A DNA stretch of 64,000 bases from Meghimatium bilineatum (lineage: Eukaryota > Mollusca > Gastropoda > Stylommatophora > Philomycidae), in the NCBI GenBank assembly GCA_034231615.1, contig CM067317.1, forward strand, positions 20,357,379 through 20,421,378, given 5' to 3'. The position numbers and the translations under genes are program-made. This document shows, one piece after another, positions 10,690 to 64,000 of this stretch (its first letter is position 1; each line of letters opens with the position of its first letter). The notes beneath the pieces are model-generated. The model saw nothing but the letters and a program-made list of their open reading frames with translations. It did not search any database and was not told the origin of the DNA.

Positions 10690-12464
10690 CGCCGCAAGGC
10701 AAACAAGGGACACAGCGTATAGATATAGATAGAACAATAATACTATCGTCTGGAAAGACAGGAAGGATGCTTACTATTGCACAGTATTATCGTTTAGCTT
10801 CATCTTTTAAAAGCAAATAGGCCTACTGTCAGTAAATAGTATTTCCAGTAGAAGTCGCCATTGCTTCAAATTAGAAATATTTCAATAAATATTACAGATG
10901 TTCTCGAGTACTAATCTTTCACATTGTAAACTGCAACTGCTTCTGGTTGTTGTATTTTAAAAGTTCTCTCATTCTGGAACACAATTCACATTCATATACG
11001 AATCTTTGAGATCGGCGTTGTTTATCTCTGAAGGGCGTCGTAGTGTGACGACTCCACTTTGTGAACCATATTTACAGGTTTCATCATCAGTACACTAACT
11101 TCATGCACAACAAGGAACCATTTATCCGTGGCTATTCAGTACGGAAAAATACTCGAGTTCAGTAACCTATCGATAAAAATTTTCCATCCGCCATGTTGTT
11201 GTAGCGTTCCAGATTTTTGTTGTTGTAACAATAGTTTTAAGCACACGAATGTGCAAGTGTTACGTCGATATATAAACATGTTAAAATTAATTATAAACCT
11301 ATTTTGTGTTTCATGTTTCAAATCAAAAGAACACAAGATACTGGGCTAAATTAAAAACTAATATTTTACCTTCAACCACATATTTCTAGCATTATACAGC
11401 ATATGTAGGTTCTGCGTAATGTGCGCGTAAATTTTGAAAGTGTTAACATTTCATTCATAAAACGTTTAGCAGTATATTTTGACGTAAGTAATGGTGAATG
11501 GATATAAATAACACATTGAGTTATTTTAATCCTCATTTTGCTTGAATAGGTGGTCTTTCTTAAGGCCCCCCCCCCCCCCAAATCACCCAATTAACCACCC
11601 GTTTAAAATTCCTACATAGAAAAGAGATTGACACAGATATGGCTATGGAAGTAAAGTGCAATTCTGGTAAGTTATACCATTCAAACAGGATATCTTGTTA
11701 TTCGTATGTGACTATATTTATATCAAATATGAAAACTTCAATGTTTTCAATGAGTGGAAAATCACAAATAATATTTCCATATTTAAAAAAAAACATGATT
11801 TATTTTCATGGTTATACGCCTTTATATAAAGGGTGGTGCCAGAATATAACGATAACTACCCCCATTACAGAACAAAGAATAATTTTATTGGCGATGTCAG
11901 ACAAAATTATGAACGGAAAATTTTTTACGAAAAGTAAAAATAACGTTTACTTATGCTATTATACTATTATTTCCCACGTGATTTATAATGCGGACTATTT
12001 CGTTTTTATTTAACATTGTTGAATCATATATTCCTGTCTGAAAATATTCCACTTCTGCCTTTATCAATGAGAGAAGCATAGGCCAAAGATTAATGGAAAA
12101 TTGTCAAATTTGGGTACACCCTTTTGTGCATAACAGTTTTTAATGACCTATCTGCGGCATTGGTAATAGACTTGTAAAAATTGTTTCTTATTGACGAGAA
12201 GTTCACATCCTGTACGGTGTTATTTGTCCACATTTGGACACTTATTTCTCACTTCAACTTCTGGCATGATTGCCATCAGTTGTAGTGCCAATATAAGCAA
12301 TAGAGTTAGGGAAACATTTTATTTTTAGAGAGAACGTGTTAATTGACAGACATTTTGTTCATAACATTATCCCACAAATGTGAGTTTTTTTACAATATAA
12401 TTCTATATTTTTGTTATTCTGAGATGTTATATCTCACGGAAAGATGTTAAATAAAATATAAGAT

Positions 12465-12610
12465 CGTGTACAGGGCTGTGCTGTACTATGATGCACATAG
12501 GTGGCGCATCAGGCTGCACCAACCAAAACACATTTAAGGGGCGGCATTTCGAAGAAAACCCTTTATATGGGGCGGCATTTCAAAGACTTGCATCATACTG
12601 AGAAAATCTA
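12465..12610 (-). repeat. Dispersed repeat family C, copy 1
   Basis: On the minus strand it has two GAAATGCCGCCCC motifs, then GCAGCCTGATGCG, and ends in CAGCACAGCCCTG. The same order is found at 31845-32005 and 43793-43920 on the plus strand, and again in the duplicated copy at 63010-63150. Unknown class. Confidence 0.7.
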
Positions 12611-12985
12611 TTGCAAGGTCCTGATTACAGGAACATACAAATACAGTAAAATATCCTAAGTGGAACCGTAAGGGACTGGGTATTTTCCCGATAAAACCAA
12701 CTTCTGCTTAATCAAGGTGTGCTATTGACAATTTAATTATTTGCGGAGCTGGAAAACATTTCCGTTGAAAACAGATTTTCGTTTAATAAATAGATTGTTT
12801 AAAACAGATTTTACTGTATTAGAAAAGACATTTCTGTGAGTAAGACTATCATTGAAACTATATCCTCAGAAAATATACATTGATATATTTATCAGAGTTC
12901 ACGTTATGCGCTATGGAAAGAGTAGATCAAGTTGAATTAATATATGAAACATAGTTCTACTTCTTCTTTCCTTTCTCTTTTACCT

Positions 12986-13174
12986 TTACGGGTGTCGAGG
13001 GAGATATAATGTTCTTGTTCTCGCTTTTCTGGCAGCTTCAGATAATTTCATTTGATGTTCGTGCAATGTCTCTTTGATGTTGTCGATTAAGCGTACTCTA
13101 GGTCTACCCCTGGGTCTTCTTTCTGCTTCTTCTCTCTTCATATATAATTTATATACTAATGAATCACATGGCAT
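12986..13174 (-). mobile_element. LINE C-terminal fragment
   Basis: Minus-strand open frame of 62 codons: KREEAERRPRGRPRVRLIDN, IKETLHEHQMKLSEAARKAR, ending LYLPRHP. The basic RPRGRPR block followed by an amphipathic helix is the usual end of RTE-type LINE ORF2. A copy is present in the duplication at about 63530-63718. Confidence 0.65.
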
Positions 13175-13287
13175 TCTTTAAAGATGGAACATAGTTAATA
13201 TTTATTAAATTGGAGTCATCTTAAAGCAAATACGAATATTAAAGAACTGATATTTGGTAAAACTCGAGACAATGATGGCACTGCATT

Positions 13288-13680
13288 ATGATGTGTGCAT
13301 TCTGGGAAGATATCAAATTGAGGAATATATTGACAGAGTTATTGCAACGCTGGGGTTACTGGACGATGAGACTTAGTATGACCATCATTGATTATGCAGT
13401 TGTGCTGGGTAACTATAGTGCACTATTGGTGAAACAGCGTCAATTTGTTTGGTTTAGACACCTAACAAGACACGATTCACTTTACAAAAATATTTTTCAA
13501 GGAACAGTCGAGGGTGAAAGAAGGAGAGAGCAATGTACATCTTGGATTGACATTATCATGGAATGCTCTGGGCATGATTTTTACTACACTCTTCCGAATG
13601 ACTTATATGACTTTTTTATGCTGATGTTTCCAATGTGGCAGCCCTGCGACGCTGACGGGTTATAGGTCCTACTATCATTA
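13288..13680 (+). mobile_element. LINE C-terminal fragment with 3' end
   Basis: Open frame with QRQFVWFRHLTRHDSLYKNI, FQGTVEGERRREQCTSWIDI and IMECSGHD, the standard tail of RTE-type LINEs (FGH..RHD..LYK block, basic block, W.D.I..W.G block). Downstream, CCAATGTGGCAGCCCTGCGA matches the end at 8415-8440, marking the likely 3' terminus. It is 5'-truncated. Confidence 0.75.
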
Positions 13681-24863: not shown

Positions 24864-24917
24864 ATGTCATATTGCAAACATTGTATGGAGATCCTGAATT
24901 ACCTTTGTGTTGAATGA
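24864..24917 (+). promoter_or_regulatory. Upstream ORF just before the zinc-finger start codon
   Basis: An ATG at 24864 opens 17 codons (with a second in-frame ATG at 24885) and stops at TGA 24915-24917, only 4 bases before the main ATG at 24922. It would be read first on any mRNA that includes this stretch, and could dampen translation. A splice-acceptor-like TATTCCAG ends at 24861, so this may be the start of the exon. Its use is inferred. Confidence 0.45.
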
Positions 24918-24921
24918 AAAT

Positions 24922-26601
24922 ATGAGCATTTCTCCAACTACAATATTTCTGAATGAAGACTTGGACAATACAAATGAGTTATTGGAGGAGCAGTTATCTT
25001 CTCATTTTACATCAGAGGAGTCTGCTTCATGTCTATTTGACATTTTATCTGTGGCTCCAGTTAGCCACTCGTTCAATTCATCTTTATTGGAAGATATTGA
25101 TCTTGATCTTCAGTGTGAGGATGAAAATATTGATTGTTCAAATGATGCATGTAAGCAAGAAATAGTCAAGTTTACTTTACCTACTGTTCACAGTGTTAGT
25201 GGTGCAGAATATTCACCTTCAACAATAACTACAGTGTGCTACAAAAAAAGTAATTTTATACCTCCAGTTGATGTGACATCAGTAGGCCAAAGTTCAAGTG
25301 GTAGATCATATCCAGTTCAAGGTAGTAGTCTACAGCTTCAATTCTCAATTCCAGGATCATGTTCAGAAGCATGTAAATCATACAAGTCCCAGAATGTGTC
25401 AAATAAACATTGTGTTACATGCAGACTTTGTTCTATACAGTTTTCTAGCAAGGAGGCATTACTTATACATGATAGGGATAAACATGTGAAAAAAGAAGTT
25501 CTTTTACATGGATGCACCCATTGTCATGCGAGTTTTAGAAGCAAAAAGTCTCTCACTAGACATTTTAAAATTCACAAAGAACTACTAGAAAAATATGAAA
25601 CTTGTAGAAATTCCAATGAAAATTGTGTGTATTCTTGTGAATTATGCCCATATATGAGCAAGACTAGAGCACTTCTGAATTATCACACAAAGACAAAACA
25701 CAGCTTGCAGAAAAAAATTTATACTTGTGAAAAATGTCAGTTTTCCTGCCTTCAGGAACACACTTTGACATTACACCACCAGAGACATGAAAATGATCCA
25801 AAGTTTGCATGTGACCAGTGTGGTAAGCTATTTCTCACAATGGGTATTCTTAAGCGCCATGCTCATACACATAACAAAACCAGAGCATTTGTTTGCAAGT
25901 ATCAGCATTGTTGTAAGAGCTTCAACATAAAAAGCAGATTAACTGATCACCTGCGAACTGTTCATAGATACAGTCAGAGAAACCTTAACATAAATTCATC
26001 AGACAACAATAGTTGTGACCATCCTACCTGTGCCCATCCTAGCAATAAATTATATAGCCATTTGCAAAAGGCAGATTGTTTCAACTGTCAATACGGCAAA
26101 CAGAACAGCAACAGTGAACTTCCAAAGTCAGGCCTAAACATGTCTAATGATACTTCAGTTTCAGGACTCAATATTGGTGACATCTATGTTTATGATGTTG
26201 TTCTTCCAGAAAATGAAATTACAACTTTTAACAGTGCTGGTGATAATATAGATAGTCTCAGAAACTCTTGTTCCTCCAGTATAACCTTGAACAATAATAT
26301 GATCTGGCAGAAAAATTCAACCTCATATTCAAATGATTTAAAATCTGAAAGCAGTCGTTCCATTAGTCACAACAGTTCCTTACAGAGAAATATAATAGAA
26401 AAGAAGTTTATTTGCATATGGGATGGTTGTGAGAAAAAATTTAGAGATAATTATAATTTGTATGTTCATAGGTGTACCCACACTGGGGAAATGCAAAGGG
26501 CTTGTAACCTCTGTAGATATAGGTGTGTTCAGAAATCAGCTATGGATGCTCATATGAGAATTCATGATAAACAAAAAAATATTAAAAGTACAAATAACTG
26601 A
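24922..26601 (+). CDS. C2H2 zinc-finger protein, single exon, eight fingers
   Basis: A 559-residue open frame from ATG 24922 to a TGA at 26599. The in-frame GTG at 24907 is not a likely eukaryotic start, and an in-frame stop lies at 24895. The N-terminus (1-150) is acidic and serine-rich (NEDLDNTNELLEEQL, EDIDLDLQCEDENIDC), like an activation or docking region. Six C2H2 fingers follow at about 165-350, including CTHCHASFRSKKSLTRHFKI, CELCPYMSKTRALLNYH and CDQCGKLFLTMGILKRH. The sixth is of the C-x4-C type (CKYQHCCKSF). A long Ser/Asn-rich linker (355-495) precedes a pair of C-terminal fingers (CIWDGCEKKF, then CNLCRYRCVQKSAMDAHMRI) joined by HTGEMQR. A nuclear DNA-binding transcription factor is likely. 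I cannot name the orthologue. With no introns and a clean frame amid transposons it is either a real one-exon gene, the last exon of a longer gene, or a retrocopy. Confidence 0.88.
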   Translation: MSISPTTIFLNEDLDNTNELLEEQLSSHFTSEESASCLFDILSVAPVSHSFNSSLLEDIDLDLQCEDENIDCSNDACKQEIVKFTLPTVHSVSGAEYSPSTITTVCYKKSNFIPPVDVTSVGQSSSGRSYPVQGSSLQLQFSIPGSCSEACKSYKSQNVSNKHCVTCRLCSIQFSSKEALLIHDRDKHVKKEVLLHGCTHCHASFRSKKSLTRHFKIHKELLEKYETCRNSNENCVYSCELCPYMSKTRALLNYHTKTKHSLQKKIYTCEKCQFSCLQEHTLTLHHQRHENDPKFACDQCGKLFLTMGILKRHAHTHNKTRAFVCKYQHCCKSFNIKSRLTDHLRTVHRYSQRNLNINSSDNNSCDHPTCAHPSNKLYSHLQKADCFNCQYGKQNSNSELPKSGLNMSNDTSVSGLNIGDIYVYDVVLPENEITTFNSAGDNIDSLRNSCSSSITLNNNMIWQKNSTSYSNDLKSESSRSISHNSSLQRNIIEKKFICIWDGCEKKFRDNYNLYVHRCTHTGEMQRACNLCRYRCVQKSAMDAHMRIHDKQKNIKSTNN

Positions 26602-48718: not shown

Positions 48719-49007
48719 ACAGATTGGCAGCAATATATCTTTTTTTTATTATACACAACCAACTTCTAAATGGCTTTTGAGTAGTTTGATCCGTTATGGG
48801 TAAAACGGCCCTAAATTTCATTATCAGTCTCTTGCGAAATGCGCGGTAGGAAGGTCGAGTGTTTTTCTTCTAGTTCGCAGTTTAACATGTCCACACATCA
48901 AGTCAGGTTTTTAAAAAAAATAAATGCCACTGTAGACTATTTGAATACTTCTCAGTGCTCCAATATAGCTTTCTGTGGATGCCGCCAGTAGTATACAGCC
49001 AGCATAA

Positions 49008-49140
49008 TGATACGTGGGTCAGTTGGTCAGTTGGGTCTGTCAAGGTCAACAGACCCGAACAGACCCGAACAGACCCATGATCCGTCAAGGTCAACTGACC
49101 CGGAACTGACCCGGAACTGACCCAGTGTCTGTAAAGATCA
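49008..49140. repeat. Short inverted and direct repeat cluster
   Basis: GGTCAGTTGGGTCTGTCAAG and its near reverse complement (GAACTGACCC repeated, AACAGACCCGAACAGACCC) are packed into 130 bp, so the strand could fold into hairpins. Function unknown. Confidence 0.6.
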
Positions 49141-49229
49141 ACGGGGCAAGGGAACAACGGCCCTGGATAAGCTTTTATGACATGGTGGGAGGGGATGTAG
49201 GTGGTACCAATTGGTACCACAACCAATGA

Positions 49230-49395
49230 ATGGTCACCGAAACCGGCCGTACTCGCGCGGTGTATGTGTGGGCCCGGAGCGAAACCGGTCGAAACCGGCG
49301 GAACCCGCGCGGTGTGTGTGTGGGCCCGGAGCGGGCGGGGCGGCGGATGGGGTGGGGCGGCGAGGCCCCCGACCCTGAAAACTGGAAAAGGGGTG
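49230..49395. other. GC-rich island heading a tandem array
   Basis: About 150 bp much richer in G+C and CpG than its surroundings, with a 27-bp block (CGCGCGGTGT, GTGTGGGCCCGGAGCG) present twice. It lies just upstream of the ~340-bp tandem array. It may be a promoter-like CpG-rich patch or the edge of a repeat element. There is no coding evidence. Confidence 0.5.
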
Positions 49396-49464
49396 GGTGG
49401 GATTTTCCCTTTAGATTTTGTGATAAAGAAAACGTCTATGGAAAGTTACAATTAATGAGGTCAT

Positions 49465-50730
49465 TATAACCAGGTCATACGGTGGGGGGTCATCTCTACC
49501 ATATGTAGATCTAGGTCAATTCCTTAGAAGGCATAGTACTGACGTGTGTGCCACTTGTGTTTAAAATTCAAATTCTGACCAGCAAAACACCATAAAATTT
49601 TATGGTACAAGGTCAATTAACCATCTGGTGGGGCACGGAAACTTACAGTGAATGATGTCAGCATAGCCCGATTACGTTGTCGGGGTCATCCATAACACTA
49701 CTCTATTAAGATCTGGTTCAAACTGTACGATGACATAACACAGACGCGTACTTTTCCACAAAGAATATGGGATGGAAACTTTGAAAGAATGAGGTTAGCA
49801 TAACCAGGTTAAACGGTGGGTGGTCATATATACCTCTACCATATTTAGATCTAGGTCAATTCCTTAGAAGGCATAGCATACCGGGTGTGCCACTTGTGTT
49901 TAAAATTCAAATTCCGACCAGCAAAACACCATAAAACTTTACGATACAAGGTCAATTAACCATCTGTTAGGGCCCGGAAACTTACAGTGAATGATGTCGG
50001 GGTCATCCATAATACTACTCTATTTAGATCTGGTTCAAACTGTACGATGACATAACACAGATGCATACTTTTCCACAAAGAAAATGGGCTGGAAACTTAG
50101 AAAGAATGAGGTCAGCATAACCGGGTTAAAAGGTGGGGGTCATATATACATCTACCATATTTAGATCTAGGTCAATTCCTTAGCAGGAATAGTACTGACG
50201 TGTGTGCCACTTGTATTTAAAATTCAAATTCTGACCAGCAAAACACCATAAAATTTTACGATACAAGGTCAATTAGCCATCTGGTGGTGCACGGAAACTT
50301 ACACCAAATGTTGTCAGCATAACCCCGGTTACGCTGTCGGGGTCATCCATAACACTACCCTATTTAGATCTGGTTCAAACTGTACAATGATATAACACAG
50401 ATGCATACTTTTCCACAAAGAAAATGGGTTGGAAACTTACAATGAATGAGGTCAGCATAACCAGATCATACGGTGGGGGTCATATATACCTCTACCATAT
50501 TTAAATTTAAGTCAATTCATTAGAAGGAATAGCACTGACGTGTGTGCCACTAGTGTTAAAAATTGAAATTCCGACCAGCAAAACACCATAAAACTTTACG
50601 TTTCAAGGTTGAGTAGCCATCTGTTAGGGCACGGGCTATTTCAATATATGATCATTAGCGAACTTTTCCACAAAGAAACCGATACTGGAATCTTAGCACG
50701 AATGATGTCAGCATAATCCGATCACGCAAC
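49465..50730. repeat. Tandem array of ~340-bp units, about four copies
   Basis: Units begin near 49468, 49812, 50120 and 50460. Each carries ATCTAGGTCAATTCCTTAG, GTGTGCCACTTGTGTTTAAA, GACCAGCAAAACACCATAAA, GTCGGGGTCATCCATAACAC and CTTTTCCACAAAGAA. The second unit is ~35 bp shorter. Copies are similar but not identical. No coding potential is visible. Confidence 0.92.
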
Positions 50731-51499
50731 CAGTATATGAAAGCGAACACCCTTTATCTATCTTAGCTGTCTCTGTATATAATCACTATAAGCATGGTTG
50801 GTGTCCGAATGTAGGGATATCGTTTTGTGATCATGCTATATTATTATTAATGATATTAATATACTGATACAAATGCTATTTAAATTATTAGTTTGAATTT
50901 CAAACAGTATTTTACAAAATATTTCCAGCTCTATGAAATAGTTTAAAGGAAAAATAAATCCCTATATAAACTCCTGTGATAAACCACAGGTAAAGTGTAA
51001 CGGCTTAATTACTGGCTCGAGACGGCGTACGCGTGTCAATCGATAATCACCAAGCGTGACGGCTTGACCACAGTGTAAAATGTATTAGAGTAACACAGAC
51101 ACTGACAAAATAATTGGGGGTAATTATAAGAAACATATATATATGCATGAAGCATACATAAGCGTGAACATGTCGCATTCATAACATTCCTTGAATTACT
51201 GAAAACGGTTAAAAATTAGTCTTACTATTAAACAATGAAAATTTTTAAAAACTGGTCTGTTAAATGCTTACAAAACGGCCACCTGGTAGAGATTAACACC
51301 TTCTGTTATGACTAGCGTCTCTGGCATCTTTATTACCATAATTTTGAATATTTGTAAACCTCACTATACAACACGATTTAGCGCTGTGTTATGAGTGTTC
51401 TCAAACTCCCTAAGTCTTCGTACATATATAGTTAAATATACCTTGGTGTAAGAATTAGAAATTGTACCAAATTAATACAATTTCATTATTACAGGCCCT
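50731..51499. other. No recognisable feature
   Basis: AT-rich sequence without a gene or repeat I recognise. Confidence 0.3.
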
Positions 51500-51624
<125 letters not shown>

Positions 51625-52698
51625 TGTTTTTCTTTCCGTTCTTCCTAGCTTCGGCCTTTTCTTTTGTTTATCTTCATGTTAAAGGTTTGGTATGTTTGAT
51701 GTAATCTGGGTGTTTATCTTTGTATGTGTTCTTATGACGCTGGTAGTAGTGATTGGTCGTCTGCGAAGCGCAATTCGTTGAGTTATCTCTTATATTGTTT
51801 TCTTCAGTTGTTTTTGCTGCTTTGGTGATGTGATCTAAGTATGTTATATATAGATGGCCACACACACACACACACATACTTACAGATATTTTCAAAGCTC
51901 TGTAGCGTGTTTAAATCTTTACAAAAGAAACATTTGACATATATGCACATTCTCAAACTCCCCCCCCCCCCTTACAGTTGAGTGATTCTAAGTTGTTATC
52001 AAACACGGTTCGGGGTTGCCACACAATTGGAGTTATTAATAAACAATCTTTTTAATGTTAAATTTTAAAGAAAGGAGCGCATTAATCATAATATGAATAA
52101 GGGTCTCCACACATTCTTCTGTGCCTTGGCCAATGGTTCTCATTATTTTATGCTTATATTCAAGTGCTTCTCACATTGTAAAATTGAAAATTATGGTGCT
52201 GGGTGGTTAATATAACTCATATAACAAAAATGTTCTCAGTATATTCACACTAGCTTCTATCATATTCTACCCTGTTTAATATTTTCTTAGTATGTTCTCA
52301 CTAGGCTCTGCAACTATTTTCTCACTTCACGCTTTAGCCATGGTCGCCGGGTGGTCTCTGTATGAGTTTCAACTATGTTCTACCATATTATCAGTATGGT
52401 CTCGCTAGCTTCTAACATTGTCTACTTTGGGTCAATATTTTCTTAGTATATTCTCGGTAGGTTCTTCAATTATGTTTTCAGTCCCCGTTTCAATTATGGT
52501 ATCTCTCTTTTAAGTTATTGTTTCTTTGCCAACAGTTCTCATAATAACATATATCCCACACCACAAACGTCATGTTTATCAGTTTTCTGAATTAGCAGTT
52601 CTATACCCATAATAGTTACCCTACCTTTAAATAACACAGAGGAAAAGGCCAAGGGTTCTCACACCTTTAGGGTGGTTTGGGTGCTTGAATTAACTTGA

Positions 52699-52965
52699 CT
52701 AGCTTATGACCCCAAACCATGATGGGGTTTCTAATGTTATCTTGGTCTGTGTATAACCCTTGTATAAAGCAGTTCTGGGCTCAGCAGGTCTACCTATATC
52801 GAATATATAGAGAGCGAAGGTTCTGTTCTTCATGATCTGTGGATAACTTCTGAGTTCTGTACCGGTCAATAACTTGAACCTCTGTAGTTTATAGAAGCTT
52901 TCTTTGTAGCAAGACATAGCATATAGTACAACGAAACAGACAATACACATATACAAATATAACAA
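52699..52965 (-). CDS. Small membrane-type ORF, left arm
   Basis: Mirror of 60333-60599. The likely ATG is six codons in from the first open codon. The N-terminus MCIVCFVVLYAMSCYKES has a hydrophobic stretch, and the C-terminal half is polar (GRPAEPRTALYKGYTQTKIT). Not recognised. It is perhaps a single-pass membrane protein of the virus-like element. Confidence 0.4.
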   Translation of the reverse strand: MLYLYMCIVCFVVLYAMSCYKESFYKLQRFKLLTGTELRSYPQIMKNRTFALYIFDIGRPAEPRTALYKGYTQTKITLETPSWFGVIS

Positions 52966-53178
52966 TGATTAAAGTCGAACCATAAAACGTGATAGACATA
53001 TTTTTTCAGAGATATAAAACATATTTATTTTATGATTCGCATACCTTTTTCCAAAATAATTAAGAAAGAATAAAAAAAGGTTCATGGTATATTTGACTGT
53101 TCATAGGAGTCACAGTTGGTTGTAGTTTTCGTCTCCTGGTTGGCTTCTTCTTTTTCTGTTCTGGTTGGTTGTGGGTTG

Positions 53179-53480
53179 CTACAGGCATCTCAGGTACATA
53201 TGTGGGTTCGTAGTCGGTGTAGACATTTTGTTGGCTGTATTAGTAACTGTGTTTGCAGCTGGAGCAGTTGAATCGGTTTTTGTGCCAAAAACACCACACA
53301 CTCTATCAAATTCTTTCAGAATGACCTCTCGGAGGTCTACGAGGTCTACAAATTCTTGACGACTCATTGTGATGCCGGTTCTAGTTGGATACTTTATATT
53401 TGCATCACCATAGTAACGCCGAACATGGATAAGTGGTCTCTTGAATGATGTTACGGCTACATCATTAACACCATCACCTA
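53179..53480 (-). pseudogene. PC4/SUB1-like fragment, left arm
   Basis: Mirror of 59820-60120 (see there). Fossil copy of a virus-like gene with a PC4-type single-stranded-DNA-binding core. It looks broken or incomplete. Confidence 0.4.
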
Positions 53481-53685
53481 ATGGTTTATCATATCATTGC
53501 CTCTGGAAAAATAGGTAGTTGAGGACCTCATATTCCTAATTATTGAAATGACAGTACACCATATTGAAATGACAGTTTATTTTCCCAGTGTGTGACTGTG
53601 AAACGTGGAAATATAAGCGGCAGTGACACATCAAGCCCTTTTAACATTAATAGAGCAAGGACAAATGGTGAGTTAGTCAACTTAA

Positions 53686-54650
53686 TCATTGGGCTGGTTC
53701 AAAGCTTTTTTTGAAATGATGAGGTCTGTCTAAAGTGTAAGCCTGACTATTATTTCTTCCCTGTTCGTAGTGATCTATGATCTTACGCCTATGGGTGCTA
53801 TCAAGCAAGGGTGAAATGACTAGCTCAAGCTCATTGACCCGCCTTTGAAACAGTTCCCGGTCTAAAGCAAAATAACTTCTTGTGTAATGATGAGCTTCAG
53901 CCACAAAAATATAGGTAGTTATCAATTTACCCCCTGTAGCAAAATGAACCTGTAGAGTAAACAAGAGGAATATCCATTAGCTCGGCTTGTTACACTTACT
54001 TATAGGTTAGCACACTTAAGAAAAGAAAGTTCGCATTAGCTGTACGTGCATATTATTATACACTAGTTACTCCACCACGGATATAATCCGCCCCCGGTGT
54101 AGTGATATCATAGGAAGAAAAAGTACCACGACAAAATAGTCTCTGTTCGGTAATGATATTATTATTATTATTTTATTTTTTTTCAAAGGTTAGCCTAAAC
54201 ACAAACAACTAAACTCCAATTACCGCCTTACAACAACAACCAATATATGTATACATACACATAATACCTTTCTACGACCCTGTTTGCTTTCAGTTCCTGA
54301 GACAGCGTGACAACGGGCGATGGTAGTGGTAGGATAATCATACTCCCATTTAGCATTAATCTAAGTGATGGTAAACATGATTCTAGACTATTGGTCCCTG
54401 ACTCACCAGCTAGATGAATGGTTTCTGTCTCGGATGATGGGTCTGATACGGCTTCACTTCTGGGTTTAAAGAGCGTGGCTAGCGTTAAAGGTGAATTAAA
54501 GACAGAGCAGCTTATCGGGGACATCGACATATCTTCATTGTCTGACCACCCATCACTGTCTTCATTACTACCAACGCCCTCAGTTGCCTCAGAAGCTGAA
54601 CACCAAGAAAAAAGGCTCCCAAGTGGACATCTATCGAGTTGCATTTTCAC
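53686..54650 (-). CDS. PPP1R15 (GADD34/CReP)-like gene, left arm
   Basis: Mirror of 58645-59613 (see there). The 92-codon piece at 53964-53686 with the PPP1R15-type core is the same as in the right arm. The upstream acidic piece (54650 on) is close but not identical to its partner, so the two copies are not mere reflections of each other. Treated as a fossil of a virus-like element. At least one copy looks broken. Confidence 0.6.
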
Positions 54651-55066
54651 TGGCGACGTTGGTCGTATCGGCTTTTTGTTGTTGGGGTTTAAAAGACACT
54701 AATTATGGAGAAGCCACACCTACCAGCTGCCTACGGGTAATGTTAGTGCCTATAAGAGTGAAGTGTATTATAGGGTTTGTGTGCCGCCTTCAACATTAAC
54801 CGCTACCAGTAATAATCTGCCGAACTAGCTAAACTCACCCGCACCGCATAAACAATAGCTAAACATATAGGGTAGCTTGTTATGGGGTTGTACCTGAGCA
54901 ATACGTAGTGAAAATTTTATTAGTGTGTAACCTATACATAAAGGATGAAAAAAGGCTACCCTTCGTCATTGTCTTAAACATGCACACCTCTGAGAATGAC
55001 ATCTCAGCACGGGCTATAAATACGACAGCATATGATTCTGATACTAACAAACGAGCAAACACCTAG

Positions 55067-55073
55067 TTTTATA
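55067..55073 (-). promoter_or_regulatory. TATA box, left arm
   Basis: TATAAAA on the minus strand, mirror of the box at 58222-58228. It stands upstream of the PPP1R15-like region and reads towards it. Confidence 0.4.
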
Positions 55074-55734
55074 TACGAACCAGCTACACCAATCGCCTGT
55101 ATTGCACTATTGAAGCACAACCGAATAGGCAATACAGGTTTTGTACTGTGCACACACTTGGAGTAACCCATTCATCCCATTGGGTGATGTGTGTATATTT
55201 GTAGGACCAAACATTTTAAAAAAATCATACGTTATCGGCACTTACTAATAGAAACTACCGGAACTTGGTCATTTTGAAGAATGACTTATGTAAGTAATGT
55301 TGTTAATATCTGAACAGGTGGTTTGTTATTCTAACAGGATTTTCAATCATAGTATTGTTTTTGGCTCTTCTTCTTCAGACATGGGTTAACGGGCACATTC
55401 GCTACCTTTTCTATGGTATTTTGATGTTAAATTTAATATCTGATATGTGTGAAATTCTATAGGGTCTTGGTTGTTGGTCCGTTTTGGTAGTTGCCAGCAT
55501 GTGGGCGTGGAAAAAAGTTGGTGTAAATGTGAATACATTTGTGTATTTTTGGTGTGTATAGATACACTAACATCCCGGTGATATATTTGGGTCGTATTTA
55601 TTACTATTGTTGTGCTCGTTGTATATGTATATTGTTTGAGCTGTGTATGTATAGCCTGATTATGAGTTAGGGCTAACTATGTTTGTTATCTGCTTGGGAA
55701 TTGGCTTATTTACGCAGTCCATCTATTTTCCACA

Positions 55735-56393
55735 GACTAAGACGTCCACCAAAACCTTCCGGTGTGTTCAATGCTTGAAACCATTCAGTCGCCTTTACAC
55801 ACTGCAAAGACATACACAAGATCTTCACCTTAAAAAAAAGACATAACTGTAATTTTTGTGTTAATGTTTACACAGACGCTTCAACATTAAGACAGCACAA
55901 ACAGAAGTGTCATACACCCCAATTAGTAACAACGGATGGGACTTTTAAACCTAGCGAGGGGCATCATAGTAATTTAACACCAACCAAGAACATGATACTA
56001 GTTGATCCCCAGGTGGTCGACACCTTGCTGTATAAAACAGTCTATAAACCACCTGCTTCTTTAACTGATTCTACGGGTGAGTTGGACCAAGATATGCGGG
56101 CGGTTTTATCTCGTGGTGATTTAACCAATCATGAAAAATCTACACTATACCAAAAAACATTACAACAGTATTTGAATCGACTCAGTCAATACAAAAACAT
56201 ACCGATGAAGCTATTAGAGAGCACGCAGTGTTCGGTACCAAGTGCCTTAATACAGAAAGATGAAGAACCCACTGAGAAAATTCCAGAGAAAGGCGAAGTG
56301 ATGTCTAAGATGCCACTGCTTCAACATAGGCGGGTATCTAAAAGAACAAAATGTAAAACAATGGACAAAAGTCTGATTTGGGATAAGTGGTAG
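55735..56393 (+). CDS. Zinc-finger / MILVDP protein of Polinton-adintovirus type, left arm
   Basis: The downstream open part (55992-56393, 133 codons) starts MILVDPQVVDTLLYKTVYK, then has LDQDMRAVLSRGDLTNHEKS and LYQKTLQQYLNRLSQYKN, and ends in a basic region (RRVSKRTKCK) and DKW. Just upstream two C2H2-like fingers are visible (CVQCLKPFSRLYTLQRH and CNFCVNVYTDASTLRQH). A finger pair followed by an M-LVDP start and a LYxQTLQRYL-like helix is, to my recollection, a recurrent protein of animal Polinton/adintovirus elements. This is family memory, not a search. No capsid, polymerase or integrase is visible in the arms. Fossil, and the region as a whole looks broken. Confidence 0.5.
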
Positions 56394-56616
56394 AAAAACT
56401 GTAGAAGGCAACGCCCCATTACACAACAACTTATCGCCTGTTTAAACTAATATGATACTTATATATATATATTACATTAATAAGCAAAATAAAATAAGAA
56501 AACCACAACCATGTTGTTGTATTTTGTCTGTATTTGTGTGTATGTGTGTGTGTGTGTGCCTGTGTAAAAAAAAAAAATTGCTCATAAACATAAAAAAACT
56601 ATGCCGATTTCCCTCC

Positions 56617-56682
56617 TAGCACGGGATCCCATGTAGATACATGATAAAAGACCCCCCGTGTTACACGGGATCCCGTGCTAGG
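56617..56682. repeat. Centre of the inverted repeat: 36-bp spacer with nested small palindromes
   Basis: The arms stop pairing at 56630/56667. The 36-bp spacer (56631-56666) contains GTGTTACAC (perfect but for its middle base). The junctions contain CACGGGATCCCGTG on the right and, across the left junction, a CATGTAGATACATG inverted pair. Such nested palindromes are reminiscent of hairpin or terminal sequences of linear DNA genomes, but they may simply be the seed of a foldback event. Confidence 0.8.
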
Positions 56683-56901
56683 AGGGAAATCGGCATAGTT
56701 TTTTTATGTTTATGAGCAATCTTTTTTTTTTACACAGGCACACACACACACATACACACAAATACAGACAAAATACAACAACATGGTTGTGGTTTTCTTA
56801 TTTTATTTTGCTTATTAATGTAATATATATATATAAGTATCATATTAGTTTAAACAGGCGATAAGTTGTTGTGTAATGGGGCGTTGCCTTCTACAGTTTT
56901 T

Positions 56902-57560
56902 CTACCACTTATCCCAAATCAGACTTTTGTCCATTGTTTTACATTTTGTTCTTTTAGATACCCGCCTATGTTGAAGCAGTGGCATCTTAGACATCACTTC
57001 GCCTTTCTCTGGAATTTTCTCAGTGGGTTCTTCATCTTTCTGTATTAAGGCACTTGGTACCGAACACTGCGTGCTCTCTAATAGCTTCATCGGTATGTTT
57101 TTGTATTGACTGAGTCGATTCAAATACTGTTGTAATGTTTTTTGGTATAGTGTAGATTTTTCATGATTGGTTAAATCACCACGAGATAAAACCGCCCGCA
57201 TATCTTGGTCCAACTCACCCGTAGAATCAGTTAAAGAAGCAGGTGGTTTATAGACTGTTTTATACAGCAAGGTGTCGACCACCTGGGGATCAACTAGTAT
57301 CATGTTCTTGGTTGGTGTTAAATTACTATGATGCCCCTCGCTAGGTTTAAAAGTCCCATCCGTTGTTACTAATTGGGGTGTATGACACTTCTGTTTGTGC
57401 TGTCTTAATGTTGAAGCGTCTGTGTAAACATTAACACAAAAATTACAGTTATGTCTTTTTTTTAAGGTGAAGATCTTGTGTATGTCTTTGCAGTGTGTAA
57501 AGGCGACTGAATGGTTTCAAGCATTGAACACACCGGAAGGTTTTGGTGGACGTCTTAGTC
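56902..57560 (-). CDS. Zinc-finger / MILVDP protein, right arm
   Basis: Mirror copy of 55735-56393. The 133-codon part (57303-56902) has the same predicted protein as in the left arm. Both copies read towards the centre of the palindrome, opposite to the other genes of the arm. Confidence 0.5.
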
Positions 57561-58221
57561 TGTGGAAAATAGATGGACTGCGTAAATAAGCCAATTCCCA
57601 AGCAGATAACAAACATAGTTAGCCCTAACTCATAATCAGGCTATACATACACAGCTCAAACAATATACATATACAACGAGCACAACAATAGTAATAAATA
57701 CGACCCAAATATATCACCGGGATGTTAGTGTATCTATACACACCAAAAATACACAAATGTATTCACATTTACACCAACTTTTTTCCACGCCCACATGCTG
57801 GCAACTACCAAAACGGACCAACAACCAAGACCCTATAGAATTTCACACATATCAGATATTAAATTTAACATCAAAATACCATAGAAAAGGTAGCGAATGT
57901 GCCCGTTAACCCATGTCTGAAGAAGAAGAGCCAAAAACAATACTATGATTGAAAATCCTGTTAGAATAACAAACCACCTGTTCAGATATTAACAACATTA
58001 CTTACATAAGTCATTCTTCAAAATGACCAAGTTCCGGTAGTTTCTATTAGTAAGTGCCGATAACGTATGATTTTTTTAAAATGTTTGGTCCTACAAATAT
58101 ACACACATCACCCAATGGGATGAATGGGTTACTCCAAGTGTGTGCACAGTACAAAACCTGTATTGCCTATTCGGTTGTGCTTCAATAGTGCAATACAGGC
58201 GATTGGTGTAGCTGGTTCGTA

Positions 58222-58228
58222 TATAAAA
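58222..58228 (+). promoter_or_regulatory. TATA box ahead of the PPP1R15-like region, right arm
   Basis: TATAAAA in a TCGTATATAAAACTAGG context. It is the clearest core-promoter-like site in the arm and reads outward. A short ORF with ATG at 58293 (MSFSEVCMFKTMTKGSLFSS, ending 58415) lies between it and the PPP1R15-like gene. Confidence 0.45.
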
Positions 58229-58644
58229 CTAGGTGTTTGCTCGTTTGTTAGTATCAGAATCATATGCTGTCGTATTTATAGCCCGTGCTGAGATGTCATT
58301 CTCAGAGGTGTGCATGTTTAAGACAATGACGAAGGGTAGCCTTTTTTCATCCTTTATGTATAGGTTACACACTAATAAAATTTTCACTACGTATTGCTCA
58401 GGTACAACCCCATAACAAGCTACCCTATATGTTTAGCTATTGTTTATGCGGTGCGGGTGAGTTTAGCTAGTTCGGCAGATTATTACTGGTAGCGGTTAAT
58501 GTTGAAGGCGGCACACAAACCCTATAATACACTTCACTCTTATAGGCACTAACATTACCCGTAGGCAGCTGGTAGGTGTGGCTTCTCCATAATTAGTGTC
58601 TTTTAAACCCCAACAACAAAAAGCCGATACGACCAACGTCGCCA

Positions 58645-59613
58645 GTGAAAATGCAACTCGATAGATGTCCACTTGGGAGCCTTTTTTCTTGGTGTTCAGC
58701 TTCTGAGGCAACTGAGGGCGTTGGTAGTAATGAAGACAGTGATGGGTGGTCAGACAATGAAGATATGTCGATGTCCCCGATAAGCTGCTCTGTCTTTAAT
58801 TCACCTTTAACGCTAGCCACGCTCTTTAAACCCAGAAGTGAAGCCGTATCAGACCCATCATCCGAGACAGAAACCATTCATCTAGCTGGTGAGTCAGGGA
58901 CCAATAGTCTAGAATCATGTTTACCATCACTTAGTCAGATTAATGCTAAATGGGAGTATGATTATCCTACCACTACCATCGCCCGTTGTCACGCTGTCTC
59001 AGGAACTGAAAGCAAACAGGGTCGTAGAAAGGTATTATGTGTATGTATACATATATTGGTTGTTGTTGTAAGGCGGTAATTGGAGTTTAGTTGTTTGTGT
59101 TTAGGCTAACCTTTGAAAAAAAATAAAATAATAATAATAATATCATTACCGAACAGAGACTATTTTGTCGTGGTACTTTTTCTTCCTATGATATCACTAC
59201 ACCGGGGGCGGATTATATCCGTGGTGGAGTAACTAGTGTATAATAATATGCACGTACAGCTAATGCGAACTTTCTTTTCTTAAGTGTGCTAACCTATAAG
59301 TAAGTGTAACAAGCCGAGCTAATGGATATTCCTCTTGTTTACTCTACAGGTTCATTTTGCTACAGGGGGTAAATTGATAACTACCTATATTTTTGTGGCT
59401 GAAGCTCATCATTACACAAGAAGTTATTTTGCTTTAGACCGGGAACTGTTTCAAAGGCGGGTCAATGAGCTTGAGCTAGTCATTTCACCCTTGCTTGATA
59501 GCACCCATAGGCGTAAGATCATAGATCACTACGAACAGGGAAGAAATAATAGTCAGGCTTACACTTTAGACAGACCTCATCATTTCAAAAAAAGCTTTGA
59601 ACCAGCCCAATGA
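58645..59613 (+). CDS. PPP1R15 (GADD34/CReP)-like PP1/eIF2-alpha regulator, right arm
   Basis: PPP1R15 proteins recruit protein phosphatase 1 to dephosphorylate eIF2-alpha and so restart translation under stress. Herpesvirus ICP34.5 and African swine fever virus DP71L are known viral relatives. Here a first open piece (ATG 58651) is acidic and serine-rich (SNEDSDGWSDNEDMSMSP). A second open piece (59335-59613) carries the family core: VHFATGGKLITTYIFVAEAH, then YTRSYFALDRELFQRRVNEL, then ISPLLDSTHRRKIIDHYEQG. The order RVxF-like PP1 docking start, a short hydrophobic strand, an aromatic/DR..F.RR helix and an L..HR helix is that of the PPP1R15 C-terminus. A CTCTACAG acceptor-like site lies directly before VHF and a GTATTATG donor-like site about 300 bp upstream, so a two-exon gene, as in animal hosts, is plausible. 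Fossil of a virus-like element, or host gene captured by it. Confidence 0.68.
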
Positions 59614-59819
59614 TTAAGTTGACTAACTCACCATTTGTCCTTGCTCTATTAATGTTAAAAGGGCTTGATGTGTCACTGCCGCTTATATTTCCACGTTTCA
59701 CAGTCACACACTGGGAAAATAAACTGTCATTTCAATATGGTGTACTGTCATTTCAATAATTAGGAATATGAGGTCCTCAACTACCTATTTTTCCAGAGGC
59801 AATGATATGATAAACCATT

Positions 59820-60120
59820 AGGTGATGGTGTTAATGATGTAGCCGTAACATCATTCAAGAGACCACTTATCCATGTTCGGCGTTACTATGGTGATGCAAA
59901 TATAAAGTATCCAACTAGAACCGGCATCACAATGAGTCGTCAAGAATTTGTAGACCTCGTAGACCTCCGAGAGGTCATTCTGAAAGAATTTGATAGAGTG
60001 TGTGGTGTTTTTGGCACAAAAACCGATTCAACTGCTCCAGCTGCAAACACAGTTACTAATACAGCCAACAAAATGTCTACACCGACTACGAACCCACATA
60101 TGTACCTGAGATGCCTGTAG
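59820..60120 (+). pseudogene. PC4/SUB1-like fragment, right arm
   Basis: One reading frame contains KRPLIHVRRYYGDANIKYPT, then RTGITMSRQEFVDLVDLREV and LKEFDRVCG. The pattern (V.IR.YY ... KP..KGI.L....W..L) fits the PC4/p15 coactivator fold, a single-stranded-DNA-binding domain found in eukaryotes, phages and some DNA viruses. The only in-frame ATG is inside the domain (59932), so this looks incomplete or broken. The C-terminus is low-complexity (TVTNTANKMSTPTTNP). Confidence 0.42.
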
Positions 60121-60332
60121 CAACCCACAACCAACCAGAACAGAAAAAGAAGAAGCCACCAGGAGACGAAAACTACAACCAACTGTGACTCCTATGAACA
60201 GTCAATTATACCATGAACCTTTTTTTATTCTTTCTTAATTATTTTGGAAAAAGGTATGCGAATCATAAAATAAATATGTTTTATATCTCTGAAAAAATAT
60301 GTCTATCACGTTTTATGGTTCGACTTTAATCA

Positions 60333-60599
60333 TTGTTATATTTGTATATGTGTATTGTCTGTTTCGTTGTACTATATGCTATGTCTTGCTACAAAGAAAG
60401 CTTCTATAAACTACAGAGGTTCAAGTTATTGACCGGTACAGAACTCAGAAGTTATCCACAGATCATGAAGAACAGAACCTTCGCTCTCTATATATTCGAT
60501 ATAGGTAGACCTGCTGAGCCCAGAACTGCTTTATACAAGGGTTATACACAGACCAAGATAACATTAGAAACCCCATCATGGTTTGGGGTCATAAGCTAG
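60333..60599 (+). CDS. Small membrane-type ORF, right arm
   Basis: Identical protein to 52699-52965. Likely ATG at 60351. One N-terminal hydrophobic segment then a polar C-terminus ending ETPSWFGVIS. Function unknown. Confidence 0.4.
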   Translation: MLYLYMCIVCFVVLYAMSCYKESFYKLQRFKLLTGTELRSYPQIMKNRTFALYIFDIGRPAEPRTALYKGYTQTKITLETPSWFGVIS

Positions 60600-60769
60600 T
60601 CAAGTTAATTCAAGCACCCAAACCACCCTAAAGGTGTGAGAACCCTTGGCCTTTTCCTCTGTGTTATTTAAAGGTAGGGTAACTATTATGGGTATAGAAC
60701 TGCTAATTCAGAAAACTGATAAACATGACGTTTGTGGTGTGGGATATATGTTATTATGAGAACTGTTGG

Positions 60770-61080
60770 CAAAGAAACAATAACTTAAAAGAGAGATACC
60801 ATAATTGAAACGGGGACTGAAAACATAATTGAAGAACCTACCGAGAATATACTAAGAAAATATTGACCCAAAGTAGACAATGTTAGAAGCTAGCGAGACC
60901 ATACTGATAATATGGTAGAACATAGTTGAAACTCATACAGAGACCACCCGGCGACCATGGCTAAAGCGTGAAGTGAGAAAATAGTTGCAGAGCCTAGTGA
61001 GAACATACTAAGAAAATATTAAACAGGGTAGAATATGATAGAAGCTAGTGTGAATATACTGAGAACATTTTTGTTATATG
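60770..61080. repeat. Degenerate ~90-bp repeats at the outer arm (mirrored in the left arm, 52219-52529)
   Basis: Pieces such as GAGAATATACTAAGAAAATATT, GAGAACATACTAAGAAAATATT and AGAAGCTAGTGTGAATATAC recur three or four times in a non-exact rhythm. Non-coding. They may be a regulatory or terminal region of the element, or host sequence within the duplicated arm. Confidence 0.45.
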
Positions 61081-61195
61081 AGTTATATTAACCACCCAGC
61101 ACCATAATTTTCAATTTTACAATGTGAGAAGCACTTGAATATAAGCATAAAATAATGAGAACCATTGGCCAAGGCACAGAAGAATGTGTGGAGAC

Positions 61196-61295
61196 NNNNN
61201 NNNNNNNNNNNNNNNNNNNNNNNNNNNNNNNNNNNNNNNNNNNNNNNNNNNNNNNNNNNNNNNNNNNNNNNNNNNNNNNNNNNNNNNNNNNNNNN
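61196..61295. other. Assembly gap (100 N)
   Basis: Exactly 100 N, a conventional placeholder for a join of unknown length. The right arm of the inverted repeat ends on its left, and the direct duplicate begins on its right. Confidence 1.
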
Positions 61296-64000
61296 GGAAA
61301 GACAGGAAGGATGCTTACTATTGCACAGTATTATCGTTTAGCTTCATCTTTTAAAAGCAAATAGGCCTACTGTCAGTAAATAGTATTTCCAGTAGAAGTC
61401 GCCATTGCTTCAAATTAGAAATATTTCAATAAATATTACAGATGTTCTCGAGTACTAATCTTTCACATTGTAAACTGCAACTGCTTCTGGTTGTTGTATT
61501 TTAAAAGTTCTCTCATTCTGGAACACAATTCACATTCATATACGAATCTTTGAGATCGGCGTTGTTTATCTCTGAAGGGCGTCGTAGTGTGACGACTCCA
61601 CTTTGTGAACCATATTTACAGGTTTCATCATCAGTACACTAACTTCATGCACAACAAGGAACCATTTATCCGTGGCTATTCAGTACGGAAAAATACTCGA
61701 GTTCAGTAACCTATCGATAAAAATTTTCCATCCGCCATGTTGTTGTAGCGTTCCAGATTTTTGTTGTTGTAACAATAGTTTTAAGCACACGAATGTGCAA
61801 GTGTTACGTCGATATATAAACATGTTAAAATTAATTATAAACCTATTTTGTGTTTCATGTTTCAAATCAAAAGAACACAAGATACTGGGCTAAATTAAAA
61901 ACTAATATTTTACCTTCAACCACATATTTCTAGCATTATACAGCATATGTAGGTTCTGCGTAATGTGCGCGTAAATTTTGAAAGTGTTAACATTTCATTC
62001 ATAAAACGTTTAGCAGTATATTTTGACGTAAGTAATGGTGAATGGATATAAATAACACATTGAGTTATTTTAATCCTCATTTTGCTTGAATAGGTGGTCT
62101 TTCTTAAGGCCCCCCCCCCCCCCAAATCACCCAATTAACCACCCGTTTAAAATTCCTACATAGAAAAGAGATTGACACAGATATGGCTATGGAAGTAAAG
62201 TGCAATTCTGGTAAGTTATACCATTCAAACAGGATATCTTGTTATTCGTATGTGACTATATTTATATCAAATATGAAAACTTCAATGTTTTCAATGAGTG
62301 GAAAATCACAAATAATATTTCCATATTTAAAAAAAAACATGATTTATTTTCATGGTTATACGCCTTTATATAAAGAGTGGTGCCAGAATATAACGATAAC
62401 TACCCCCATTACAGAACAAAGAATAATTTTATTGGCGATGTCAGACAAAATTATGAACGGAAATTTTTTTACGAAAAGTAAAAATAACGTTTACTTATGC
62501 TATTATACTATTATTTCCCACGTGATTTATAATGCGGACTATTTCGTTTTTATTTAACATTGTTGAATCATATATTCCTGTCTGAAAATATTCCACTTCT
62601 GCCTTTATCAATGAGAGGAGCATAGGCCAAAGATTAATGGAAAATTGTCAAATTTGGGTACACCCTTTTGTGCATAACAGTTTTTAATGACCTATCTGCG
62701 GCATTGGTAATAGACTTGTAAAAATTGTTTCTTATTGACGAGAAGTTCACATCCTGTAAGGTGTTATTTGTCCACATTTGGACACTTATTTCTCACTTCA
62801 ACTTCTGGCATGATTGCCATCAGTTGTAGTGCCAATATAAAGCAATAGAGTTAGGGAAACATTTTGTTTTTAGAGAGAACGTGTTAATTGACAGACATTT
62901 TGTTCATAACATTATCCCACAAATGTGAGGTTTTTTTACAATATAATTCTATATTTTTGTTATTCTGAGATGTTATCTCTCACGGAAAGATGTTAAATAA
63001 AATATAAGATCGTGTGCAGGGGCTGTGCTGTACTATGATGCACATAGGTGCCGCATCAGGCTGCACCAACCAAAACACATTTAAGGGGCGGCATTTCGAA
63101 GAAAACCCTTTATATGGGGCGGCATTTTCAAAGACTTGCATCATACTGAGAAAATCTATTGCAAGGTCATGATAACATGAACATACAAATACAGTAAAAT
63201 ATCCTAAGTGGAACCGTAAGGGACTGGGCATTTTCCCGATAAAACCAACTTCTGCTTAATCAAGGGTGTGCTATTGACAATTTAATTATTTGCGGAGCTG
63301 GAAAACATTTCCGTTGAAAACAAATTTTCGTTTAATAAATAGATTGTTTAAAACAGATTCTTACTGTATTAGAAAAGACATTTCTGTGAGTAAGACTATC
63401 ATTGAAAACTATATCCTCAGAAAATATACATTGATCTATTTATCAGAGTTCACGTTATGCGCTATGGAAAGAGTAGATCAAGTTGAATTAATATATGAAA
63501 CATAGTTCTTCTTCTTCTTTCCTTCCTCTTTTACCTTTACGGTGTCGAGGGAGATATAATGTTCTTGTTCTCGCTTTTCTGGCAGCTTCAGATAATTTCA
63601 TTTGATGTTCGTGCAATGTCTCTTTGATGTTGTCGATTAAGCGTACTCATAGGTCTACCCCTGGGTCTTCTTTCTGCTTTCTCCTCTCTTCATATATAAT
63701 TTATATACTAATGAATCACATGGCATTCTTTAAAGTTGGAACATAGTTAATATTTATTAAATTAGAGTCATCTTAAAGCAAATACGAATATTAAAGAACT
63801 GATATTTGGTAAAACTCGAGACAATGATGGCACTGCATTATGATGTGTGCATTCTGGGAAGATATCAAATTGAGGAATATATTGACAGAGTTATTGCAAT
63901 GAACCGCTGGGGTTACTGGACGAAGAGATTTAGTATGAACATTATTGATTATGCAGTTGTACTGGGTAACTATAGTGCACTATTGGTGAAACAGCGTCAA
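61296..64000 (+). repeat. Right copy of the 2.7-kb direct duplication
   Basis: Matches 10752-13443 throughout, up to the window edge, so the duplication probably goes on beyond it. Holds the same poly-C tract (62110-62123), repeat family C (63010-63150) and LINE tails (about 63530-63718 and from 63840). Differences are small and scattered, at the level expected between two alleles. It starts exactly at the gap, so it may be the other haplotype of the 10.7-kb region rather than a true duplication. Confidence 0.95.

Follow-up and report, generated by a model that had tools for sequence, protein, structure and literature searches.

A palindromic Polinton-type element carrying a PPP1R15-like gene probably captured from its host

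Polinton/Maverick elements are recognised by AG ends, inverted repeats and a 6-bp target-site duplication, and in defective adenovirus genomes, products of a protein-primed system, snap-back copying yields palindromes. PPP1R15 proteins ordinarily allow translation to resume following stress, an activity that a few viruses also exploit. For mammalian PPP1R15B, excerpts from three studies state that residues R658, W662, F672 and I676 are important for actin-dependent eIF2-alpha dephosphorylation, as is the arginine preceding the phenylalanine (PMC4394352, PMC8500838, PMC10743859), and an excerpt from a fourth describes an FLKAWVY helix that binds eIF2-gamma (PMC10998612). Viral PPP1R15 proteins named in the excerpted text of PMC4394352 are herpesvirus ICP34.5 and a granulovirus protein. 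Among the literature matches listed, no text tied Polintons or adintoviruses to PPP1R15 or GADD34, which is not proof of absence in print. The data presented here make it probable that a Polinton-type element has captured the 3' part of a host PPP1R15 gene and spreads as a non-autonomous palindrome, its protein likely docking protein phosphatase 1 (PP1) for action on eIF2.

The window, meaning the whole 64,000-nucleotide stretch analysed, corresponds to C20:20357379-20421378 of a genome of 1.61 Gb in 32 contigs. The element and its parts are located in it as follows.

48987..61195, no strand: palindromic Polinton-type element, with its left end at 48987 (AGTAGTATACAGCC) and its right end lost in an assembly gap
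49438..50634, no strand: 340-bp tandem array of the outer arm, common to other copies
53179..53493, minus strand: mirror copy of the PC4 ORF
53686..53949, minus strand: mirror copy of exon 2
54268..54644, minus strand: mirror copy of exon 1, its frame broken in the present assembly
55779..56393, plus strand: mirror copy of the C2H2-MILVDP gene
56604..56694, no strand: palindrome axis, a stem with a short unpaired centre (z -12.1)
56902..57640, minus strand: gene with C2H2 and MILVDP domains, in two overlapping frames in the window (56902-57516 and 57452-57640)
58651..59031, plus strand: exon 1 of the PPP1R15-like gene, 127 codons ending ...RRK, with a counterpart in the inferred host gene
59032..59349, plus strand: predicted intron of the PPP1R15-like gene, GTATTATG...CTCTACAG, with ends alike in 9/9 copies compared
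59350..59613, plus strand: exon 2 of the PPP1R15-like gene, VHF... core and stop
59806..60120, plus strand: ORF with a PC4 (p15) domain (PF02229, E 6.7e-6, 26 bits, cut-off 25)
61196..61295, no strand: assembly gap of 100 N, which cuts the right arm

The PPP1R15-like gene has two exons, starts at 58651 and comprises 214 codons when spliced (a predicted 214-aa protein), and its mirror copy spans 53686-54644 on the minus strand. Splicing would occur at K|VHF, the PP1-docking motif KVHF being formed across the predicted junction. This RVxF-type motif at the start of the core is present as K|VHF in 11/11 young copies examined, and the chance of such a motif within the expected stretch is 1.2%. The earlier note had described a 92-codon ORF with a PPP1R15 core; an ORF of this kind exists (59323-59613) and carries the quoted VHF..., DRELFQRRV... 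and HRRKII... motifs, but it represents the last exon of the gene and not the whole of it. When the 1562 window ORFs of at least 25 aa were searched with a two-sequence profile of the human PPP1R15A/B core, this ORF ranked first, tied with its mirror copy, at 14.5 bits, better than chance as judged from 20 shuffled ORF sets (best score 9.6 bits), and alignment of exon 2 with the same profile by hhalign gave P 1.3e-5. The family search proposed in the earlier note placed the ORF first with the human profile, and with Pfam the gene stayed below the cut-off: PF10488 scored 13.4 bits (E 0.062) on the spliced window protein, under the 26.1-bit gathering cut-off, and did not match exon 2 alone. Three sister proteins also fell under this cut-off (18.2, 23.3 and 14.6 bits, the best E of 5.9e-5 belonging to the 23.3-bit match). 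Three less closely related sequences of this genome were also scored: a gene on contig C21 (29.3 bits) and the element copy L045 (26.2 bits) passed, and the copy L047 (21.6 bits) failed. Used as a whole-genome query PF10488 gave no matches, but its 14 controls were equally silent. No PPP1R15 chain was found when the spliced protein was compared with the PDB by phmmer, exon 2 alone found no candidate in the protein collection, and a structure model of exon 2 built without an alignment (pLDDT 46.9) was set aside.

The visible palindrome in the window extends over 52103-61195 (~9 kb), with the C2H2-MILVDP gene, the PPP1R15-like gene, PC4 and the tandem arrays following one another in this order from the axis outward. 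In copy L036 the C2H2-MILVDP gene is open over 245 aa in a single frame, and the protein of this gene has a relative, P0002, that is 63% identical. A low-confidence model of this protein gave no Foldseek match to viral structures at E <= 0.001. In viral contigs, queried with two alignments and two DNA patterns as well as with the proteins of the exon, C2H2 and PC4 ORFs, no relative was found; phage records likewise gave none. The right arm stops exactly at the N gap, as might be seen if the palindrome were a fold-back artefact of assembly. This explanation was rejected as extremely improbable, the inverted pair being found at many loci and on many contigs and 8/8 copies followed to both ends having their own flanks and target duplications. 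The stretch past the gap (61296-64000) is a 98.6% direct copy of window positions 10752-13443, which makes the scaffold join behind the broken palindrome doubtful. Elsewhere in the window, a 567-aa ORF with C2H2 zinc fingers (24898-26601) may be a host gene.

A genome search with exon 2 gave 150 scored matches among 237 candidates. By eye count 145/150 are stop-free and all but about two dozen form minus/plus pairs whose members are mostly separated by 4.6-6.0 kb. The list therefore represents roughly 70-90 elements. Odd exon-2 spacings were seen at C18:22002725-22040258 (~37 kb) and C4:18012874-18022813 (~9.7 kb), which may reflect nesting or elements of larger size. The eight elements followed to both ends measure 13175-15818 bp; in all eight the ends read AGTAGT-N-TATG, terminal inverted repeats are present and the inverted arms extend to both ends. 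Exact 6-bp target duplications flank 8/8 copies, that of the L009/L010 copy lying within a microsatellite and carrying little weight. At the centres examined, in L025 and L027 (both among the eight) and in L026, exon 1 lies on each side. Both exons are open in 10/11 young copies examined, two of these having exon 2 only in part. In three of four stretches with unpaired copies (L036, L037 and L038) a 100-N gap lies beside the copy, suggesting that palindromes may break this assembly and that copy counts may be low. Older element copies with stops or frame breaks were found at L045, L046 and L047, and PC4 is recognisable beside all three, its main pieces being 73-80% identical and the end pieces of two of them 49-57%.

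A search of the 1.61-Gb genome with the human PPP1R15B core gave 13 matches at E <= 10, of which at least five are element copies on the exon-2 list and three more are L045-L047. The best match, at C21:5085882 (E 9e-4), belongs to the gene at 5.08 Mb, in which an exon with an open frame of at least 634 codons, ending ...NSLETCLEALSQVNAKWDQDYPT...SSIK, is followed by an intron of ~3.5 kb and a last exon, VHFATGSNLLTVHIVGTEERGGTWHHFALDRERFQRRI..., containing the PF10488 match given above. Taken by itself the long exon does not match PPP1R15 in Pfam, and the ~10 kb read at this locus contained no PC4, C2H2 or ATPase-like match and no AGTAGT end. The intron of the C21 gene shares its K|VHF position with that of the element gene, and the end of the C21 exon 1 shows 41-43% identity to six element copies and 46% to P0001, a sequence of the protein collection from another sample. 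The shared intron position and the alignable exon-1 end argue that the element gene has a common ancestor with a full-length PPP1R15 gene, and the shared K|VHF intron indicates that the capture took genomic DNA, intron included. As judged from these alignments the window gene is a descendant of PPP1R15, and we infer that the animal's own PPP1R15 is the gene on C21. This gene is presumably also the donor, from which a Polinton/Maverick-type element would have acquired the last exon together with the intron and the end of the long exon preceding it.

P0001 (one 1143-bp contig) is 58% identical to exon 1 of the window gene, has an open exon 1 and stops shortly past the same KV, which an intron following at this point would explain. 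Its identity to the five young element copies with which it was aligned is 66-70%, as against 48% to L045 and the above 46% to the host gene, and it is therefore probably element-borne too. An exon-1 tree of eight sequences, unrooted, short and carrying little weight, places it between the young families and the pair formed by the host gene and L045. Several proposals of the earlier note are borne out by these data: the Polinton-type setting by the AGTAGT ends and 6-bp duplications of all eight copies, the PC4-like neighbour by the PF02229 match adjoining the gene, and capture from the host by the intron position shared with the presumptive donor. The contrary case raised there, that this is simply the host's own PPP1R15 locus, does not hold; the palindrome, the copy number and the first exon are additions to that account. 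Countering eIF2-alpha kinases, the purpose suggested in the note, would be a putative role, as the window copy is missing two functionally important residues and the ORFs tested hold no autonomous Polinton gene set.

Like PPP1R15 (GADD34/CReP and invertebrate PPP1R15), the element gene has a KVxF PP1 motif at the site of the host-gene intron with the core after it, and PF10488 is matched in two relatives in the same genome. Unlike PPP1R15, it comprises only the last ~214 residues, lacks the core R and W in young families and resides on a mobile element, with 150 exon copies scored and two per intact element. With the viral PPP1R15 proteins (ICP34.5, the granulovirus protein and asfarvirus DP71L) it shares, by description, a PP1-recruiting core on a virus or virus-like carrier; unlike them, it has an intron, apparently derives from host genomic DNA and lies on an integrated element. 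The spliced 214-aa protein would most likely dock PP1 through KVHF and, if the ancestral activity persists, bring it to phosphorylated eIF2 to reverse eIF2-alpha phosphorylation, keeping translation running.

Conservation of the residues known from mammals is uneven. By ungapped extension, read by eye, the window copy has H and R at the positions of R658 and W662, so that R and W are absent, and F and V at those of F672 and I676, which were counted as conserved; the residue before F is L in the window copy and R in other families. The C21 gene, L045 and L046 (the last with in-frame stops) retain R and W; L047 has neither. These changes in the young families, at positions whose importance is stated in excerpts of PMC4394352 and PMC8500838, together with retention of K|VHF in every young copy, would suit a PP1 decoy or retargeted subunit, one that docks PP1 without dephosphorylating eIF2-alpha and ties it up, competes with host PPP1R15 or serves a new substrate. 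We regard this as somewhat doubtful, given that an A-L-D-R-E-[RL]-F segment and an INAKW block in exon 1 are retained in element copies, which would be unexpected were the eIF2 contact gone. The spacing of the conserved block INAKWE resembles that of the FLKAWVY helix, a likeness that may serve as a lead. A role of the element protein in eIF2 regulation is plausible.

Comparison of 208 codons in 14 copy pairs revealed no indel, as against 1-40 gap positions in the intron. Omega over these codons was 0.37-0.65 in 11/13 defined pairs and 0.14 and 0.87 in the others, with one pair undefined, and for exon 2 alone reached up to 0.96. The introns diverge by up to ~7%, a level near that of dN (up to 0.058), and exon 2 varies from family to family in its last few codons. 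These values suggest modest constraint on the element gene, and modest constraint with R and W missing would also suit a decoy or a passenger, that is, a piece of PPP1R15 caught when the element formed and since carried without function, its open frames reflecting recent amplification. The commonest family is nearly identical, so open frames alone say little, and a passenger would also account for omega values resting on few changes, intron divergence near dN, variable final codons and the loss of R and W in young families. We nevertheless consider a passenger unlikely, because families up to 18% apart in the DNA near exon 2 have kept 208 codons free of indels while their introns have not, and because the exons are open in nearly all young copies examined and exon 1 is open also in P0001, from another sample.

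Over ~2 kb beside exon 2 the two arms of an element are 99.90-100% identical within each of 8/8 copies, and between copies the same region is 82-100% identical. Thus the L021 and L023 elements are 92% alike, each with near-perfectly matching arms beside exon 2. Some young copies, such as L011 and L013 at 100%, are as similar to each other as arms are, and the argument for homogenisation therefore rests on the divergent families. The arms look homogenised within each lineage, as if the palindrome were re-made from one strand, and this would fit a mechanism in which protein-primed replication displaces one strand that is then copied by snap-back. Gene conversion between the arms of stably inherited elements, in place of renewal at each round of replication, would produce the same near-identity, and, outside exon 2, whole outer arms of 99.14-99.98% identity (lowest in the L023/L024 copy) indicate that arms do diverge somewhat after insertion. 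We think conversion the less probable course, possible at best, as the arms beside the gene match at 99.9-100% in all eight copies irrespective of family. Renewal by snap-back copying would parallel defective palindromic adenovirus genomes, in which one genome end is likewise doubled in inverted orientation, the difference being that the present element is integrated, heritable and amplified.

A tentative extension, to which we give rather less than even weight, is that the element acts as a heritable palindromic Polinton satellite resembling a defective-interfering genome, its PP1 module overriding or redirecting the host's translation shut-off for the benefit of the element or a helper virus; the newest families, having shed residues of the ancestral reaction, may then be PP1 decoys. 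If the main reading holds, Polinton-type elements join the short list of virus-like carriers of a PPP1R15 core, and the presence of the apparent host donor and the captured copies in one genome makes the capture and later change traceable. Palindromic Polinton derivatives in many copies also make integrated defective-interfering genomes of protein-primed viruses a testable idea.

With Polintons/Mavericks and adintoviruses the element shares AG ends, inverted repeats, the 6-bp duplication and a size of ~15 kb, and it differs from them in being palindromic throughout and in the lack, among the ORFs tested, of matches to PolB, integrase or capsid. These were selected ORFs and not a full six-frame scan, and within them no Pfam match to polymerase, integrase or capsid was found; the element therefore looks non-autonomous and is at most a non-autonomous member of the Polintons. 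It would spread as a palindrome of 13-16 kb with its genes present twice, mobilised in trans, probably by autonomous Polintons that supply an integrase and a protein-primed polymerase. DNA_pol_B_2 gave 19 matches in the genome, indicating that Polinton-like polymerases exist in it. Neither element ends nor a PPP1R15-like gene was found at four of these loci (C24, C22, C10 and C2, flanks partly read), and the short loci L040-L043 likewise had neither element ends nor a PPP1R15-like match. An ATPase-like ORF, by its motif a candidate packaging ATPase, is present in L039 and on each arm of L023/L024, with 81% identity between these copies; it has no Pfam match, and an ORF adjoining the C2 DNA_pol_B_2 locus resembles it at 26% identity (E 2.4e-5). 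A distinct Polinton-like locus at L048 and L049 (C24:19401500-19408500 and 19412600-19419600) has DNA_pol_B_2 within a 1350-aa open frame and, presumably, an integrase-like piece, so called by resemblance, with reverse-transcriptase-like ORFs close by.
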